Shown one piece after another: positions 2,283 to 19,549 of a stretch of 31,198 bases of DNA. The position numbers and the translations under genes were made by a program. Source of the stretch: a virus. Every line of letters starts with the position of its first letter. Within the stretch, counting starts at the first letter, position 1. The notes beneath the pieces are model-generated. The model searched no databases and was not told the origin of the DNA. It was given only the letters and a program-made list of their open reading frames with translations. The stretch is taken from positions 1 through 31,198 of the IMG/VR virus record IMGVR_UViG_3300022200_003166; one strand, given 5' to 3'.

Positions 2283-2311
2283 TTGACGTGCGATAGCGCG
2301 TAAGCTAGCGT
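2283..2311 (+). promoter_or_regulatory. sigma70-like promoter of the replication operon
   Basis: TTGACG (2283-2288), a 17-nt spacer, then TAGCGT (2306-2311), which fits TAnnnT. The hexamer ends 8 nt before the ATG at 2320, so the transcript would start at or next to the start codon. Two CGTAAGC heptamers (2299-2305, 2309-2315) and an inverted copy (2323-2329) overlap it. It lies 55 nt after the terminator. Confidence 0.5.
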
Positions 2312-2329
2312 AAGCGTCCATGGCTTACG
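2299..2329. repeat. CGTAAGC heptamers over the initiator promoter
   Basis: CGTAAGC at 2299-2305 and 2309-2315 (10-bp spacing) and its inverse GCTTACG at 2323-2329. The same heptamer is arrayed inside the gene at 2674-2731, suggesting one binding protein for both, most simply the initiator itself. Confidence 0.55.
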
Positions 2330-3114
2330 GTAAGGTATTCGAGTCGATGTTTACGGGGTCCATGGTCGGAATCGGCCCGACCGTTTTCGCAGTCTGGACC
2401 TACTGCATTTCCACAAGCAAGCCGCCTGGGATCGTAGAGCTAAACTCTCGCATCCTGGCGACCATCCTTGGTTGCTCGGCCGAAGAGGTCGACGCCGCAA
2501 TTGAGGTGCTGTGCTCTCCTGATCCAGACAGCCGATCGCCAGAGCACGAGGGGCGGCGGCTGATTAAGGAAGGGAACTTCCTCTACTCGATGCCCACATG
2601 GCAAAAGTACGTAGCCATCCGCCGAGAGGAAGATCGACGCCAACAGAACCGAAAGGCACAGGCTGAGTGGCGACGTAAGCAGGCGTCAGCATCTAGTAAG
2701 CATGGCGTAAGCGAGCGTGAGCAGGATAAGCCCACGGAGATGGAGATGGAGATGAATACAGAACACCCCCCCCAGCCCCCCAAGGGGGGAGAGCGCAAGC
2801 CTGCGCTTGTCATTGAGCGGCCGGAGTCTGTGCCCGAGCAAGTCTGGAAAGACTGGCTGTCAGTCCGCAAGGCCAAGAAGTTCGGGGCGGTGACCCCGAC
2901 GGTCATGGCCAGGATGGACAGCGAGGCCAAGAAGGCTGGGTTGACGCTAGCGCAAGCGATCGAGGAATCCGCCAGCAACGAATGGCGCGGCTTCAAAGCT
3001 GAATGGCTTCAAGACAGATTCTCGAAGTCCAAGACATCACCAAACGGCAACCGTGGGCACATGCCACACGACACCCGGCTCAAGGACTACTCAGATACAG
3101 GGATGGATGACTAA
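2320..3114 (+). CDS. lambda O-like replication initiator
   Basis: 264 residues. Residues 1-90 form a winged-helix-like N-terminal domain (KPPGIVELNSRILATILGCS, then an AIEVL helix) of the phage replisome-organiser type. Residues about 105-165 are a charged, Pro-rich linker whose DNA holds the iteron array. Residues about 175-235 (VWKDWLSVRKAKK to EWRGFKAEWL) match the C-terminal domain common in O-like and DnaD-like phage proteins. Such proteins bind origin iterons and recruit the helicase-loader complex. The next gene is a DnaC-like loader joined by TAATG, which supports this. No SD precedes 2320; an ATG at 2347 with a weak SD is the alternative, but the 2320 start preserves the conserved N-terminus. 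Confidence 0.75.
   Translation: MAYGKVFESMFTGSMVGIGPTVFAVWTYCISTSKPPGIVELNSRILATILGCSAEEVDAAIEVLCSPDPDSRSPEHEGRRLIKEGNFLYSMPTWQKYVAIRREEDRRQQNRKAQAEWRRKQASASSKHGVSEREQDKPTEMEMEMNTEHPPQPPKGGERKPALVIERPESVPEQVWKDWLSVRKAKKFGAVTPTVMARMDSEAKKAGLTLAQAIEESASNEWRGFKAEWLQDRFSKSKTSPNGNRGHMPHDTRLKDYSDTGMDD
2674..2731. repeat. iteron array, candidate replication origin
   Basis: Six heptamers related to CGTAAGC start at 2674, 2684, 2695, 2706, 2716 and 2725. Two are perfect, three have one change (CGTCAGC, AGTAAGC, CGTGAGC) and one has two (GATAAGC). Spacing is 9-11 bp, about one helical turn. The array lies in the linker-coding part of the initiator gene, the same place as the lambda origin in gene O. 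It is followed by three GGAGAT repeats and a C8/C6-AA-G6 tract (2766-2789). Confidence 0.55.
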
Positions 3115-3938
3115 TGACCAAGACGCTGCACACGCCCCGCAAGCACGTTGCGATTCAGACCGAGGAACGAACCTGCGACCAGCACGGGGCCTACGAAGCT
3201 CACATGTGGGCGCTCGACCCGATGCCGGCGAACCCCCGGCGCTATAGCTACCTCCAGCCGTTCTGGGGATCTTGCCCGACGTGCGATGCCAAGTTGCAGA
3301 TGGAGGCCAACGAGGCCGAGGCCATGGCGCTAGGTGGCCTATCTGCTTCCCAGCGTATCGCTAGTCTGCGGTGCAAGGAGGCAGAGATCCCAGCCCGATA
3401 CACGGAATGTTCGCTCGACTCCTTTGTCGCTGGCGTGCAGAAGCAGCGGCAAGTCCTACAGGCAGCCAAAGACTACGCTAGCGCCTTCGAAGGTGTCATG
3501 GCTGATGGCCGATGCCTTGTGCTCTCAGGAAGCCCTGGGAGCGGCAAGACGCACCTTGCAGTCGCCGTTCTCCGTGCGGCTATGGCAAAGGGCGCTACCG
3601 GACGATATGCGACTGTGATGGGCATGTTGGGCCGTATAAAGGCAACGTATGGGAAAGAACCCGAGGAGACCGAACGGCAGGCAGTCGAAGCTTTCGTTGC
3701 GCCGGATCTGCTAGTCCTCGATGAGGTGGCACGGCAGACGGACTCGAACTACGAGCACATGCAGGTTTTCCACATCCTCAACGCCCGCTACAACGAGGGC
3801 AAACCAACCGTCATCGTCTCGAACCTCAGCGGCAAGGAGTTGCGTGGGTTCCTCGGTGAAGCAGTCTGGGATAGGTTGCGCGAGAATGGTGGGCAGGTGA
3901 TGGCCTGCGACTGGGAAAGCCATCGGAGGGCGCGGTAA
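3114..3938 (+). CDS. DnaC/IstB-like helicase loader ATPase
   Basis: 274 residues. An N-terminal zinc-binding-like segment (C-x2-HG ... CPTCDAK, about residues 22-62) precedes an AAA+ domain with Walker A GSPGSGKT at 139-146 and Walker B LLVLDE at 199-204. VSNLSGKEL (sensor I position) and WDRLRE follow. This order is typical of phage DnaC-like proteins that load the host replicative helicase at the phage origin. The start codon overlaps the initiator stop (TAATG), so the two are translationally coupled, the usual O-P type pairing. Confidence 0.88.
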   Translation: MTKTLHTPRKHVAIQTEERTCDQHGAYEAHMWALDPMPANPRRYSYLQPFWGSCPTCDAKLQMEANEAEAMALGGLSASQRIASLRCKEAEIPARYTECSLDSFVAGVQKQRQVLQAAKDYASAFEGVMADGRCLVLSGSPGSGKTHLAVAVLRAAMAKGATGRYATVMGMLGRIKATYGKEPEETERQAVEAFVAPDLLVLDEVARQTDSNYEHMQVFHILNARYNEGKPTVIVSNLSGKELRGFLGEAVWDRLRENGGQVMACDWESHRRAR

Positions 3939-5272: not shown

Positions 5273-5622
5273 TGGATGGCGAGTTAGAGACGTTGCGGGA
5301 GCGCGCTAACCGATGGATTGATAGCAACCCAGAGGCGATGAAGCACTTTGCTGGATTTGCAGAGCAGTTGCGTTCTCTTGGCCGCATGTTTGGCATCGGC
5401 CTATTGGCGGAGCGAGTGAGGTGGGAGATGACTCTTCGAGGCGGTGACGAAGACTTCAAAATCAACAACAACTACCGGGCATACATTGCTCGGAGACTCA
5501 TCGCTGACGACCCAAGGCTTGTGGCTCACATGCGTTTCCGAGTCACCAAAGCGGCGAACCTTCCGGCTAAAGAGGTGGTGACTGCTGCCGAAGTGAACCC
5601 TCTTGGTGGGTGGTGTCGATGA
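5272..5622 (+). CDS. conserved phage protein of unknown function
   Basis: 116 residues from ATG 5272; a GTG at 5269 is also possible. The segment FGIGLLAERVRWEM...NNNYRAYIARRLIADDP is typical of a widespread small phage protein found near DNA-modification and replication genes, whose function has not been established. Mostly helical, no Cys pairs, no membrane segment. It overlaps the downstream methyltransferase gene by ATGA. Confidence 0.65.
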   Translation: MDGELETLRERANRWIDSNPEAMKHFAGFAEQLRSLGRMFGIGLLAERVRWEMTLRGGDEDFKINNNYRAYIARRLIADDPRLVAHMRFRVTKAANLPAKEVVTAAEVNPLGGWCR

Positions 5623-6590
5623 GTCCTAAAGAGAGCAAGCCGCTGTGGATTTACTTCCTGGCTGTTGGCGATGATGTCATCAAGATTGGGAAGTCAAGGC
5701 AGTCGAGAGGGACGAGGCTAAAGCAGCACCAGGCCCCAGCATTAGACGGGCATACTCCAGACGTGCAGGAGCTTTGCGAAATCAGGGCAGATTCTGACGC
5801 AGACGAGTTGGCTATACATCGTCATTTCGATGACATCCGCATCCAAAAGGAGACGTTCCAAGCAAGCGAGGACCTGATTGGCTACATCCGTTGGCTCCGC
5901 GACCTGAGCTACGTAGTTGTCCCAGAGGATGACGACTCATTCAGAGATTCTGTACCATTGATGGACCCAGAACACTGGATGCCATCACATGAAGGAAGAA
6001 CGAAGCCAAGGGATTTGAGCGTTTTGCCGGGGTTTGCTAAGCATGACTTGCTCCCAAGGAGGATTACAATCGACGACTTCTACACAAGCGAAGTCATTAT
6101 CGAGGCAGCAAGAACTGCAATGGGGTCAATCGACACGGACCCAGCCAGCCACTTTATTGCCAATCAAGTAGTGAAGGCAGAAACCTTCTATACTTTGGCG
6201 ACAAATGGACTGACGCAGCGATGGCATGGGAATGTATGGGTAAACCCTCCATTCAGTGACTGGGCATCTTGGGCTGCCAAGATAGCACATGAGCTAGCAT
6301 CAGGAAGAGTTAGCAGCATGTGCGCCCTAGCTGCAACTAGAACCATCACTGCAAAGTACTTCACGCCACTTATGGACACGGCAAATGCCGTATGCTTCAC
6401 CAGGGGTAGGATAAAGTTCTGGGGGACACGAGCAGGCACTCCAGACGATGGCCATGCCATCCTTTACTTTGGGCCAGATAGGGAGAAGTTTTGCGATTCG
6501 TTCCGCCGTGACGTGGGGAGTGTGTTCATCGCCACCGCAGCAAAGAGTCTGCAAGACCTAGTGATCAAAAGGGAGTCGATGACGCTATGA
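5619..6590 (+). CDS. T5orf172 (GIY-YIG-like) / DNA adenine methyltransferase fusion
   Basis: 323 residues with two domains. Residues about 8-95 (IYFLAVGDDVIKIGKS ... DELAIHRHFDDIRI ... ETFQ) match the T5orf172/MUG113 branch of the GIY-YIG superfamily. Residues about 155-310 match phage DNA N-6-adenine methyltransferases (Dam, PF05869 type): DFYTSEVIIEAAR, SIDTDPAS, catalytic NPPF at 209-212, and FTRGRIKFWG. The methyltransferase would use S-adenosylmethionine to modify adenines in phage DNA. The start at 5619 gives an ATGA overlap with the upstream gene; GTG 5610 is an alternative. GC is lower than in the neighbours, suggesting separate acquisition. Confidence 0.8.
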   Translation: MSPKESKPLWIYFLAVGDDVIKIGKSRQSRGTRLKQHQAPALDGHTPDVQELCEIRADSDADELAIHRHFDDIRIQKETFQASEDLIGYIRWLRDLSYVVVPEDDDSFRDSVPLMDPEHWMPSHEGRTKPRDLSVLPGFAKHDLLPRRITIDDFYTSEVIIEAARTAMGSIDTDPASHFIANQVVKAETFYTLATNGLTQRWHGNVWVNPPFSDWASWAAKIAHELASGRVSSMCALAATRTITAKYFTPLMDTANAVCFTRGRIKFWGTRAGTPDDGHAILYFGPDREKFCDSFRRDVGSVFIATAAKSLQDLVIKRESMTL

Positions 6591-12980: not shown

Positions 12981-15560
12981 ATGCCAACGACTACCACCAG
13001 CACGCTCGGCTCCGGCGGAGACTACGCAACCATATTAGCCTGGAATACGGCCCGGAATACGGCAGCGGCCAGCGGTGACACGGAGCGTCTGGAGATCCTT
13101 GCTGGCAGCTACTCTACCGATCTCGTCGTCACGCTGAGCGGCTGGACCGCTGGCGTCATCGTCGAGGTCGTCGCACAAGACGGCTTCGGCAGCGTCACGA
13201 TGACAGGTGCTCGCCTGACGAACGGGGCAACCGGCGCGACCAGCTTGCTGATCGAGGGTATCGAGTTCGACCAGTCAACGCTGGGCAGCTTCAACCGCAG
13301 CTTCCGCACCGATGGGACTATCACCGAGAATCGGGATGCGACCATCAGGAATTGCAGCTTCCACAGCGCACCTGCGGTCACAGCCAACGGCATCAGCCAC
13401 GCCCAGACCATGGGCACGTTCACCTCAACGCTGACCTTCGAGAACTGCGTATTCTACGGCAACGACTCCACGTATATCCCGATCGCTCTGGCATCACAGA
13501 GCGGCGATCTAGTAGTGCGAGCGAGGGGCTGCACCATCGACGGGACGCCTTGTTCCCTGACTTCGTTCGGTCGCGCTACTCCGCTGACCTACGACATCGA
13601 GTTTGCTGGGTGCCTTCTGGTTAGCTCGACGGCGATGACTGAGGGCGGCGCAGCTACCTATACGACTGCACTGGTTGACTGCATCCTTGGATCGGCCACC
13701 CCTGGATTCGATACGGAGACCAACTGCACGTTCTCAACGACGTTCAACGCGAGCGGAACGCCTGGGGCTGGCGAGGTATCGTTCACTGCATCGGCATCGG
13801 GCGACTACACGCTAGTAGATCATGCCAATAACCTGGCGCTGGGGTATTGCTCGACGGCGACGATGCCCGCAACGGACATTGTTGGCACCGCTCGCGACGC
13901 CTCTGAGGACGCTGGAGCCTACGAAGTTGCATCGGCTAGCCCGCCGCTAGGCGGCACGATGGACATCGGCTGGAACATGTCGCCGATCAACTACTACGCT
14001 GGTTGCCGGCCGTTCTTGGACATGATGAAATCCATCATTGCTCCGGTGTCGCGGCAAATCAGCCCGAACATCTGGGCTGACGGGCGCGAAGTGACGGTCG
14101 ACGCAAACGGCTACCCGCAGTCGGTGCTGTCGAACCAAGAGATCGTTTACGTCATCACAAGCAGTGATGAGGACTCGGAATGGCCATCGGGAACCTACGT
14201 GTTCCGCACTGATGGCGACATGACGTTCACCGTCACGGGCGGGACGGGGCTCACCGAAACCAGTCCAGGTGTCTGGGAGTTCACGAGCGACGGCGCTTCG
14301 GGGTTGCAGCTACGCATCACCGCGATAGTGACTCCGCCTACCTACATGACGATGGTCCACGAGGATCACGTCACGGCAAGCGATGGTGGCGAGTTGTTCC
14401 ATCCTACGTTTGTCGCGCAGGTTACAGGCCGCCCGTTGCTCCGGTTCATGAACTGGCTGGCGACAAAGAACTCGACGACGACCGACACGCTACGACCACA
14501 GTCTTACCTCTACTGGGGCGGGGACTATGGCGTGCCCATCGAGGTATGTGTCGCGCTGGCCAACAAGCTCGGTTGCGATATGTGGTATTGCATCCCCCAC
14601 CAAGCCACAGACGCAGCAGTCACAGCAGCAGCGACGAAGCTCCTGGATTGTGACGGCACGGTATACGTCGAATACAGCAATGAAACCTGGAACGGAGTCT
14701 TCCAGCAGACAACGTATGTCGGCGACCAGGGTGCTCTGATCTGGCCCGCGGAGTCGGTAACAATCCAGCGACTATGGTATACGATCCGCCGCAGTCGTGA
14801 GTGTTGGGCGCTTATGCACACTGCGGGATTGACGCAGGGCACCAAGATGCAGCGCGTGCTGGCATCTCAGGCAGCCAATAGCTGGTTGTGCGACCAGATG
14901 ATGCTGGCCGAGAGCAGCGCCGCTGTGGGGGTCGTTGACATCCTGTCGATTGCGCCTTACTTCGGTGGTGCAACGTCAAGCGCACAGAGCGCGTGGCATC
15001 AAACTAGAACGACGGAGCAATTCTTCAGTGACTACACCGCAGCCGACTCGACGGAAGTCAACGGGGTAGCGAAGGCGATCGAGGTATCGCTCGGCTACGT
15101 CCAAAGCCACATTGATCTAGGCTACGGGCTGCCGATCGTTCTCTACGAGGGCGGCCAGCACTACGCGCCAGCAGTCGCTAGCGATGCTGCACTGCGAGCG
15201 TATCTGCTGACGATGCAGAACGTCCCCGAGATGGGGTCTGCGTATGCGACATACCTCCAGGGCCTAGAAGACCTAGGAGTCCAGGGGTTCTGCGTCTTCA
15301 CGCTCGACCAACCACGAGGCAACGGCAAGGACGGTGACTTCGGGCACCTTCCGTTCGGCACGTTCTCTCCCGAACCGTTGACGCAGTATGTCAAATACGC
15401 AGCGGTGCTGGACTACATCGGGGCATCAGTGACGTTGTTCGCTGGGCACGGCGAGTTCGCGACAACGTTCCATCCAGCGGCGCTGGCCGTCAGTTCTGGC
15501 GCCGTCGTCTCTGGTTCCGGGGCGCAGCGCCTCTCACTTGGCATCGGCATCGGTATCTAA
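12981..15560 (+). CDS. tail spike: beta-helix plus GH-A-like glycosidase domain
   Basis: 859 residues. Residues 1-315 look like a right-handed parallel beta-helix of the pectate-lyase type: it opens STLGSGGDYATI, shows repeated IRNCSF/FENCVF rungs, and ends DIVGTARDASEDAGAYE. Residues about 325-800 carry YVEYSNETWNG with E568 preceded by Asn, and IVLYEGGQHY with E723, at the ends of strands and in the order of the acid/base and nucleophile of clan GH-A glycosidases. A short Gly/Ser-rich tail (LSLGIGIGI) ends the protein. It probably binds and cleaves a host capsule, O-antigen or exopolysaccharide. The ATG has no convincing SD. Confidence 0.7.
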   Translation: MPTTTTSTLGSGGDYATILAWNTARNTAAASGDTERLEILAGSYSTDLVVTLSGWTAGVIVEVVAQDGFGSVTMTGARLTNGATGATSLLIEGIEFDQSTLGSFNRSFRTDGTITENRDATIRNCSFHSAPAVTANGISHAQTMGTFTSTLTFENCVFYGNDSTYIPIALASQSGDLVVRARGCTIDGTPCSLTSFGRATPLTYDIEFAGCLLVSSTAMTEGGAATYTTALVDCILGSATPGFDTETNCTFSTTFNASGTPGAGEVSFTASASGDYTLVDHANNLALGYCSTATMPATDIVGTARDASEDAGAYEVASASPPLGGTMDIGWNMSPINYYAGCRPFLDMMKSIIAPVSRQISPNIWADGREVTVDANGYPQSVLSNQEIVYVITSSDEDSEWPSGTYVFRTDGDMTFTVTGGTGLTETSPGVWEFTSDGASGLQLRITAIVTPPTYMTMVHEDHVTASDGGELFHPTFVAQVTGRPLLRFMNWLATKNSTTTDTLRPQSYLYWGGDYGVPIEVCVALANKLGCDMWYCIPHQATDAAVTAAATKLLDCDGTVYVEYSNETWNGVFQQTTYVGDQGALIWPAESVTIQRLWYTIRRSRECWALMHTAGLTQGTKMQRVLASQAANSWLCDQMMLAESSAAVGVVDILSIAPYFGGATSSAQSAWHQTRTTEQFFSDYTAADSTEVNGVAKAIEVSLGYVQSHIDLGYGLPIVLYEGGQHYAPAVASDAALRAYLLTMQNVPEMGSAYATYLQGLEDLGVQGFCVFTLDQPRGNGKDGDFGHLPFGTFSPEPLTQYVKYAAVLDYIGASVTLFAGHGEFATTFHPAALAVSSGAVVSGSGAQRLSLGIGIGI

Positions 15561-18104: not shown

Positions 18105-18386
18105 ATGGCCTACCAAGACCAGGAGCCGCAGCAGTTCTCGATCTTCGAGGTCGACTGCATCGTTACGCCACTGCAAGCCAACGAGGCTTGGGAATCCATC
18201 TGCGAGACTATCGACGGGCTGCGCTACCACGTGGTAGAGCTGCTACTCGACAAGCTGCACATGGACGCCAGCAACAAGGAAGTCTTGGACTATGCAGAGT
18301 CGATTTGCTGCGAACACGCCACGCTGCGAGTCCGGCTGGCTGCTGCGACGCGGGCCAAGCTGGCTGATATGGGGGTGCTTGCTTGA
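18105..18386 (+). CDS. hypothetical protein
   Basis: 93 residues from ATG 18105 with SD AGGAGG. Mostly helical and acidic (CETIDGLRYHVVELLLDKLH), with a Cys pair (ESICCEH). It overlaps the downstream methyltransferase by TTGA. No family recognised. It could be a small chaperone or regulator linked to the late operon, but this is speculation. Confidence 0.55.
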   Translation: MAYQDQEPQQFSIFEVDCIVTPLQANEAWESICETIDGLRYHVVELLLDKLHMDASNKEVLDYAESICCEHATLRVRLAAATRAKLADMGVLA

Positions 18387-19549
18387 TAGCCAAACAGATC
18401 GAGCACCTGTCGGTTCCTATAGCCGACTTGACGCCGGACCCGGCCAACGCACGCAAGCACGGGCAGAAGAACCTAGACGCCATCAAGGCATCGCTGCACA
18501 AGTTCGGGCAACGCAAGCCGATCGTGGTGCAGAGCGAGGGGATGATTGTCCGCGCTGGTAACGGCACGCTAGAGGCCGCCAAGGCGCTTGGATGGACTCA
18601 CCTGGCGGCAGTCGTCATCGACGAGGACAACGCCACCGCATCGCAGTTCGCCATCGCCGACAATCGAACGGGCGAGCTAGCGGAATGGGACGACGAGACG
18701 CTTGCTAGCCTGCTCGACGGCATGGACGACGAGACGCGCAACTCGCTGGCGTTTGACGAGAAGGACATGCGCCAGTTGATGTCAGGGCTGGAGCCTACCG
18801 ACATCGTCGAGGATGAGGCACCGCCTGTTCCTGATGAGCCTGTGACGAAGCCTGGCGACCTGTGGCTGCTTGGCGAGCATCGGTTGCTTTGTGGTGATTC
18901 TGCCAAAGCGGAGGATGTTGGCAGGCTGATGGCTGGTGGTGTTGCATCGCTAGTGTTCACCGATCCTCCATATGGGATCAGCTACCAGTCGAACATGCGC
19001 ACGAAGTCTGCCAAGTTCGCCGTCATTGATGGAGATGATGCGATCGCTACGGAGTGGGTTGCGCCAGCCATGTCTCATAGCAGCGGATGGGTGTTTATCT
19101 GGACGACTTGGAGGGTGCTAACAGAGTGGACCGAAGCCGTAAGCCAGATTGGCGACATGAGCAACTTGGTAGTGTGGCACAAAGGCGGAGGAGGCATTGG
19201 CGACCTAAAGCGAACTTTCTCGACTGATTACGAGGTGGCGATGGTTTTCCATCGTGGATCAGAGTTGTGCGGCAAGCGCATCGGCAGCGTATGGTCATTC
19301 GGCAAGGACGCTGCGGCGAGATATGTTCACCCAACGCAAAAGCCAGTTGCCTTGGCTGCCGAGGCAATCGAGAAGACAACCAGAGGCGCGGCGCTGGTCC
19401 TAGACGTATTCCTCGGATCCGGCACCACGCTGATCGCCGCCGAACAACTGGGCCGAAAGTGCTACGGCATGGAGATCAGCCCCGCATACTGCGACGTGAT
19501 CGTCAAGCGGTGGGAGAACCTAACAGGCAAGCAGGCGGTGCGTGGCTAG
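18383..19549 (+). CDS. ParB-like / beta-class DNA methyltransferase fusion
   Basis: 388 residues from TTG 18383 (TTGA overlap). Residues 1-110 form a ParB/sulfiredoxin-like domain (VPIADLTPDPANARKH, LHKFGQRKPIVVQ, RAGNGTLEAAKALGW, AIADNRT). The methyltransferase part has DPPY at 194-197 before FLGSGTT at 343-349, the motif order of beta-class N6-adenine or N4-cytosine enzymes, ending in GMEISPAYCDVIVKRW. It would modify phage DNA, probably against host restriction or to mark packaging substrates; it lies directly upstream of the terminase genes. The recognition site cannot be read from the sequence. Confidence 0.85.
   Translation: MIAKQIEHLSVPIADLTPDPANARKHGQKNLDAIKASLHKFGQRKPIVVQSEGMIVRAGNGTLEAAKALGWTHLAAVVIDEDNATASQFAIADNRTGELAEWDDETLASLLDGMDDETRNSLAFDEKDMRQLMSGLEPTDIVEDEAPPVPDEPVTKPGDLWLLGEHRLLCGDSAKAEDVGRLMAGGVASLVFTDPPYGISYQSNMRTKSAKFAVIDGDDAIATEWVAPAMSHSSGWVFIWTTWRVLTEWTEAVSQIGDMSNLVVWHKGGGGIGDLKRTFSTDYEVAMVFHRGSELCGKRIGSVWSFGKDAAARYVHPTQKPVALAAEAIEKTTRGAALVLDVFLGSGTTLIAAEQLGRKCYGMEISPAYCDVIVKRWENLTGKQAVRG

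Follow-up and report, generated by a model that had tools for sequence, protein, structure and literature searches.

Organization of the replication locus

The window, that is, the whole stretch of 31,198 bases analysed here (IMG/VR record IMGVR_UViG_3300022200_003166), is a linear fragment of an uncultured phage without terminal repeats. It carries an O-like initiator gene directly followed by the gene of a DnaC-like helicase loader, as is the case of lambdoid O genes:

2320-3114, plus strand: O-like replication initiator gene, 264 aa (phrog_678, E=3.5e-21 over residues 121-257; N-domain family)
2320-2694, plus strand: part coding for the N-domain, a winged helix plus a long basic helix (AlphaFold2 model, winged-helix matches)
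3114-3938, plus strand: DnaC-like helicase loader (phrog_50, E=9.5e-64; IstB/DnaA ATPase domains)

The initiator matched no Pfam family at E<=0.001, the defining domains of RepA_N and Rep_3 included, and a permissive limit brought only Phage_rep_org_N, at 0.24. No match was found among GenBank phages, either for the window by nucleotide search or for the N-domain by tblastn, and the helicase-loader patterns searched for in viral contigs were not found. The cumulative GC skew climbs almost throughout the window and, since this linear fragment is transcribed mostly in one direction, it is unusable for placing an origin. Elsewhere in the window, a T5orf172 domain fused to a Dam-type adenine methyltransferase (5610-6590), a ParB-like domain fused to a DNA methyltransferase (18383-19549), and an 859-aa ORF at 12981-15560 with no PHROG match and no tblastn match in GenBank phages were observed.

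Iteron array within the initiator gene

The initial annotation had placed six CGTAAGC-like heptamers, 9-11 bp apart, in the linker-coding part of the O-like gene, and their positions and spacing were confirmed:

2674-2680, plus strand: iteron 1, CGTAAGC
2684-2690, plus strand: iteron 2, CGTCAGC
2695-2701, plus strand: iteron 3, AGTAAGC
2706-2712, plus strand: iteron 4, CGTAAGC
2716-2722, plus strand: iteron 5, CGTGAGC
2725-2731, plus strand: iteron 6, GATAAGC, the last before the junction, aligned with the last iteron of the relatives

The spacings of 10, 11, 11, 10 and 9 bp correspond to about one helical turn, and iteron 6 differs from CGTAAGC at two positions. The likeness that had been drawn to the lambda origin, with a different and tighter repeat, also held, the repeats being direct heptamers 9-11 bp apart inside an O-like gene. 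The iterons fall in codon phases 0, 1, 0, 2, 0 and 0, and this use of three phases indicates that they do not stem from a repeated peptide. When the same residues were synonymously resampled 50,000 times, six RTNAGC sites were never found, and five were reached 4 times. When the heptamer was freely chosen, a five-copy cluster appeared in 0.7-2.3% of the synonymous versions of the gene, so that the array by itself is only moderately surprising; at the sequence level, it is the upstream copies and the relatives that settle its reality.

Copies upstream of the initiator gene

Three further copies, overlooked in the initial annotation, overlie the putative promoter and the start codon of the O-like gene:

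2283-2311, plus strand: putative promoter TTGACG-17-TAGCGT (recognized by eye; absent from the list of a consensus scan)
2299-2305, plus strand: putative operator copy CGTAAGC
2309-2315, plus strand: putative operator copy CGTAAGC
2323-2329, minus strand: putative operator copy CGTAAGC, within the first codons

These three exact CGTAAGC copies lie within 31 nt (0.04 expected in 400 nt; rough chance ~2e-7), and only three other exact copies occur in the 31-kb window. Their position suggests that the initiator may repress its own gene by means of them. Upstream of O, clusters of iteron words also occurred in 15 of 28 relatives and in 2 of 195 control windows. In one relative (L194), tandem 10-mers, TTCCTTGACG, make up the upstream copies, about 308 nt ahead of the start of O. 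In many relatives, O is immediately preceded by a small ORF with a zinc-ribbon-like motif (IQCRxCxR), and no such ORF was seen in the window.

Relatives and conservation at the DNA level

The N-domain was found in 63 loci of IMG/VR and in two species genomes, a Pyrinomonadaceae MAG and a Burkholderiales MAG. In the phylum of the former, 10 of 396 genomes matched, that MAG included; in the phylum of the latter, about 400 genomes were searched and that genome alone matched. The register of the array was conserved in 32 relatives, the window being excluded, since 35 of their 76 iteron hits fell at the window's five offsets, against 5.9 expected; counted back from the last iteron, the sites of the relatives peak at 9/10, 19/20, 30/31, 40-42 and 51, and those of the window lie at 9, 19, 30, 41 and 51. 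Moreover, comparison of the linkers of 56 loci with synonymous resampling revealed an excess of TGTCA (68 vs 15), GTCAA (85 vs 30) and GCAGA (119 vs 41), with GTCAG and CAGAA likewise strongly over-represented.

The module formed by the iterons and the adjoining element runs past the O stop codon in three relatives (L181, L096 and L305), lies upstream of the O gene in another (L102), and is read in different frames across the family, giving EAEA, QKQK, QSQS or EMEM peptides. As judged from these cases, the module is kept at the DNA level and not at the protein level. Conservation of the heptamers beyond codon constraints, on which the initial annotation had made its proposal depend, was thus observed, positions and junction being kept despite variation in iteron word and frame, also where the module is non-coding; the same conservation agrees with its reading of the array as an iteron-type origin, which would be the activity of this segment. 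In one contig, the iteron-plus-element array occurs twice within one O gene (L199 / L104).

Junction and putative unwinding element

Beyond the last iteron, the relatives present a fixed junction and then a tandem element, with the consensus GTCAGC-CCATGCAGAAGCAGAAGC. A junction model built without the window ranked position 2726 second among all window positions on both strands. The features on this side of the array are the following:

2732-2765, plus strand: putative unwinding element with GGAGAT x3 (2736-2754), assigned by its position in the family and its low stability
2766-2789, no strand assigned: C/G palindrome, from the sequence

The window carries GGAGATGGAGATGGAGATG at 2736-2754, where its relatives carry the tandem low-stability element, and the element type differs, being CAGAAG in the relatives and GGAGATGGAGATGGAGAT in the window (GGAGAT, not CAGAAG). 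The tandem element of the relatives is on average their least stable stretch and is 76% purine; in the window, its best 30 bp stand at the 99.7th percentile of instability, and at 60 bp only at the 83rd. The GGAGAT triplet and the C/G palindrome noted earlier after the array are both present. The accompanying remark that no obvious AT-rich unwinding element follows stood as regards an AT-rich tract, which is absent beside the iterons, but a counterpart does exist, as a low-stability purine tandem occupies its place. This purine-rich tandem next to the array is likely the unwinding site.

The element varies in several ways. It is inverted in four relatives (L095, L111, L171 and L310, with TCTGnn on the gene strand), in which the iterons keep their orientation, and the variants GGAGAT, GATCA and 7-mers have little sequence in common. 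Downstream of the tandem element, two C-runs (CCCCCCnnCCCCCC-like) are present in the window (2764-2789) and also in L189, L190 and L229. A reading of the tandem as DnaA-trios was rejected, since the middle-A rule is broken in the window and in many relatives, and periods of 5 and 7 occur: GGAGATGGAGATGGAGATG has an A in the middle of every second triplet only, and at least three consecutive ones are required (PMC8287927).

An element shared with other initiators

When the element alone was used as query, initiators with other N-domains were retrieved, each locus having its own iteron word. The search with ATACAGAAGCAGAAGCAGA also returned tail-fibre and other genes in which the motif is plain coding sequence, and the initiator loci alone were used. 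In 17 such initiators pooled, self-matches peaked at lags of 9-11 and 19-21, with 201 matches at lag 10 against 7.6 expected. Profile comparison showed one group of these initiators to be homologous with the N-domain of the window (99.7%, E=8e-27), and the DUF1376 initiator group had no detectable relation to it. The N-domains of L301 and L232 had no match in phages, nor that of L301 in plasmids. A similar layout was recognized by eye in two cultured phages, the Pseudomonas koreensis phage AH02 and DC33. As the element also occurs with DUF1376 initiators and in one cultured phage of Pseudomonas, a host factor or a melting mechanism common to them is suggested.

A basic helix as candidate iteron reader

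In the AlphaFold2 model of the N-domain (pLDDT 90.5), a winged helix leads into a long helix spanning residues 94-124, and the winged-helix matches of this domain in the PDB include CRP-like proteins and pPS10 RepA. The codons of the candidate contact residues in the long helix directly precede the array:

2635-2673, plus strand: bZIP-like contact residues R106, Q109, N110, R111, A113, Q114, W117 and R118 (iteron association at 114/117, Pap1 signature and codons)

When loci were sorted by the third iteron base, the columns most associated with iteron type were 114 and 117, with lower scores for others, including 113, 110 and 109. With N110 taken as position 0, columns 114, 117, 113 and 109 become +4, +7, +3 and -1. 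The base contacts of the Pap1 complex are made by N, +3, +4, +7 and R(+8), with -1 touching phosphate, and the NxxAQxxFR of this yeast protein reads TTAC/GTAA (PMC7261193); the window combines an NxxAQxxWR helix with GTAAGC sites. This comparison with bZIP proteins was made post hoc.

Met at +4 was found in 6 of 7 GTGT-type loci vs 0 of 28 of the GTCA type (p=4e-6), and F/W at +7, in the first table, in 3 of 6 GTAA-type loci vs 0 of 35 others (p=0.002). In GTCA-type relatives, position +4 is mostly K or Q, and position +7 mostly S, E, Q or H. Among the homologues, L206 pairs the helix NREAQRRSR with GTCA, and L189 pairs NREAQKRFR with GTAA. Position +4 and the iterons differ together between the members of one supported sister pair, L088 (K, GTCA) and L204 (M, GTGT). 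The members with F/W at +7 outside the first table (L301, L309, L298, L183 and L209) were examined afterwards as a prediction test. L301, from a remote N-domain group, has GTAAGC at 45, 55 and 64 bp past the helix codons; the array of L309 reads GTAATC, GTAACC, GTAACC, GTAATC, GTAAGC; L298 and L183 present several scattered GTAAGC upstream of the gene and no linker array; and L209, with Phe at +7, has no array within the stretch covered. Altogether, GTAA accompanied F/W at +7 in all 7 scorable cases, with a pooled Fisher p=3.8e-6 that ignores relatedness. The +7 rule began as any aromatic residue (F, W, Y) and was narrowed to F/W after exceptions were seen, since Tyr proved mixed, with GTAA in L187 and L198 and not in L199, L308 and L310.

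The well-supported independent switches on the tree number 1-2, too few for a sign test. As the helix codons abut the array, both may be inherited as a cassette, and shared descent may be the source of the covariation; such inheritance would still imply that helix and array work together, but it weakens the count.

In comparisons with all PDB sequences, a profile of GTAA-type helices, the window included, retrieved two entries with weak E-values, the bZIP-domain protein 7aw7 and Pap1. The L189 helix alone retrieved 7aw7, Pap1 and one weak other, that of L301 one unrelated weak match, and those of the window and L298 none. With E-values of 0.005-0.3, the matches to bZIP are weak and do not reach the Pfam cut-off; against bZIP in Pfam, the window gave no match and L189 one below the cut-off. 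The N-x7-R/K pattern of a basic region in a continuous helix is represented by N110 and R118 within the predicted helix 94-124, and R118 is invariant in 30 sequences. No leucine zipper follows the basic region; it is RKQASASSKHGVSEREQDKP that follows R118. Taken together, the initiator appears to read its iterons via a bZIP-like helix, with one protein per helical turn.

Proposed mechanism and alternative explanations

The sites, their register, the junction, the upstream copies, the family conservation and the covariation of residues and iterons are read directly from the sequences, and from them we infer binding, melting, helicase loading, autoregulation and origin activity as follows. The repeats in the O-like gene are very probably the phage replication origin, and the array at 2674-2731 would be its initiator-binding half. 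The six sites would be occupied by adjacent copies of the O-like protein, one per turn and on one DNA face, each reading a GTAA(GC) half-site through the helix that extends from the winged-helix domain and carries R106, N110, A113, Q114, W117 and R118. The row of proteins would abut the purine-rich tandem at 2732-2765, whose melting would let the DnaC-like loader (3114-3938) place the host helicase, and through the three copies over the putative promoter and the start codon the initiator would switch off transcription of its own gene. The proposal as a whole, comprising origin array, bZIP-like reader, melting tandem, loader and self-repression, is considered probable.

Parts of this proposal admit other explanations. 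The tandem element could be a binding site of a host protein (primase, helicase or another factor) instead of a melting site, which would explain why its sequence is common to unrelated initiators: the same CAGAAG element accompanies different iteron words and unrelated N-domains, and inverted copies occur in some loci. However, low stability and purine asymmetry fit melting, and the variants GGAGAT, GATCA and 7-mers share little sequence; this reading is rated possible though somewhat unlikely, and the two roles are compatible. It is more doubtful that, with the same origin and initiator, the recognition helix of the winged helix reads the iterons and the role of the basic helix is limited to gripping the backbone or to dimerisation. 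Its fold matches to CRP-like proteins and pPS10 RepA favour this, as does the fact that RepA_N initiators read their boxes with a winged helix (PMC5703833), but covariation with the iterons involves bZIP contact positions of the basic helix and not residues of helices 43-65, and the helix rule extends to the remote N-domain of L301.

The proposed origin function itself could be questioned if the array were a pure transcriptional control site for a phage repressor or the initiator, with replication starting elsewhere. Although copies over the putative promoter and clusters upstream of O in many relatives would suit such a site, a larger phased array stands far inside the gene, always facing the low-stability element, in a layout that agrees with the lambda and pSK41 origins, which renders control alone improbable. 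The least credible explanation, hardly to be entertained, is that the repeats are a by-product, with no DNA function, of a slippage-prone, low-complexity linker peptide. The linkers are indeed variable and often of low complexity (EAEAEA), but an origin of the repeats in slippage or in the peptide was rejected, as it is contradicted by synonymous resampling, the three codon phases, the conserved register, and the non-coding, upstream and putative operator copies.

Comparison with known systems

An origin within the initiator gene is of a known kind, and the proposed one shares features with several systems. Rep_3 iteron plasmids (pPS10, F and pSC101) have a winged-helix initiator, direct repeats and extra copies in the initiator promoter, their repeats being longer and outside the initiator gene. 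The window resembles them in its winged-helix initiator, its direct repeats and the copies at the initiator's putative promoter, and differs in its shorter repeats inside the gene, with no Pfam relation found. In lambda, the iterons are 19-bp imperfect inverted repeats, four in number (six in Stx phages), beside an AT-rich tract (PMC7466680). The window is like lambda in having iterons in the linker-coding part of an O-like gene with a helicase loader downstream, and unlike it in its six direct heptamers one turn apart, its purine tandem and its copies over the putative promoter; lacking 19-bp inverted repeats, it would work like a lambda-type origin without being one. With the RepA_N plasmid pSK41 (PMC5703833), it shares a winged-helix N-domain, repeats placed centrally in the rep gene (there, Rep boxes) and a linker encoded by the origin, whereas pSK41 has another protein family, four Rep boxes and antisense-RNA copy control. 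As in the DnaA-trio region of oriC (PMC8287927), protein sites adjoin a repeated strand-asymmetric element, but the unit here has six bases (five or seven in some relatives), whereas trios need a middle A in consecutive triplets.

Three features are new to our knowledge: iterons at one-turn spacing, a melting element common to different initiators and, in a phage initiator, a bZIP-like reader. No description of the melting element or of a helix/iteron code was found in a literature search that covered few subscription papers. That the window may represent a widespread class of phage initiators, which combine a bZIP-type helix following the residue-to-base rules of fungal bZIP proteins with a common CAGAAG-type melting element across unrelated DNA-binding domains, is favoured with some reserve. 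Were a phage initiator to use the same helix code, iterons, and hence origins, would be predictable from protein sequence in uncultured phages. With Pap1, a yeast AP-1-like bZIP (PMC7261193), the phage initiator shares the RxxxNxxAQxx(F/W)R helix together with TTAC/GTAA half-sites; unlike it, the phage helix is without a zipper and joined to a winged helix, and it faces direct one-turn repeats instead of palindromic pairs. As far as sequence tells, it would read DNA in the manner of a bZIP without being one, the zipper being absent. bZIP factors have been described as exclusive to eukaryotes (PMC4046829), and a phage initiator with the same helix code would, if true, be a clear case of convergence.
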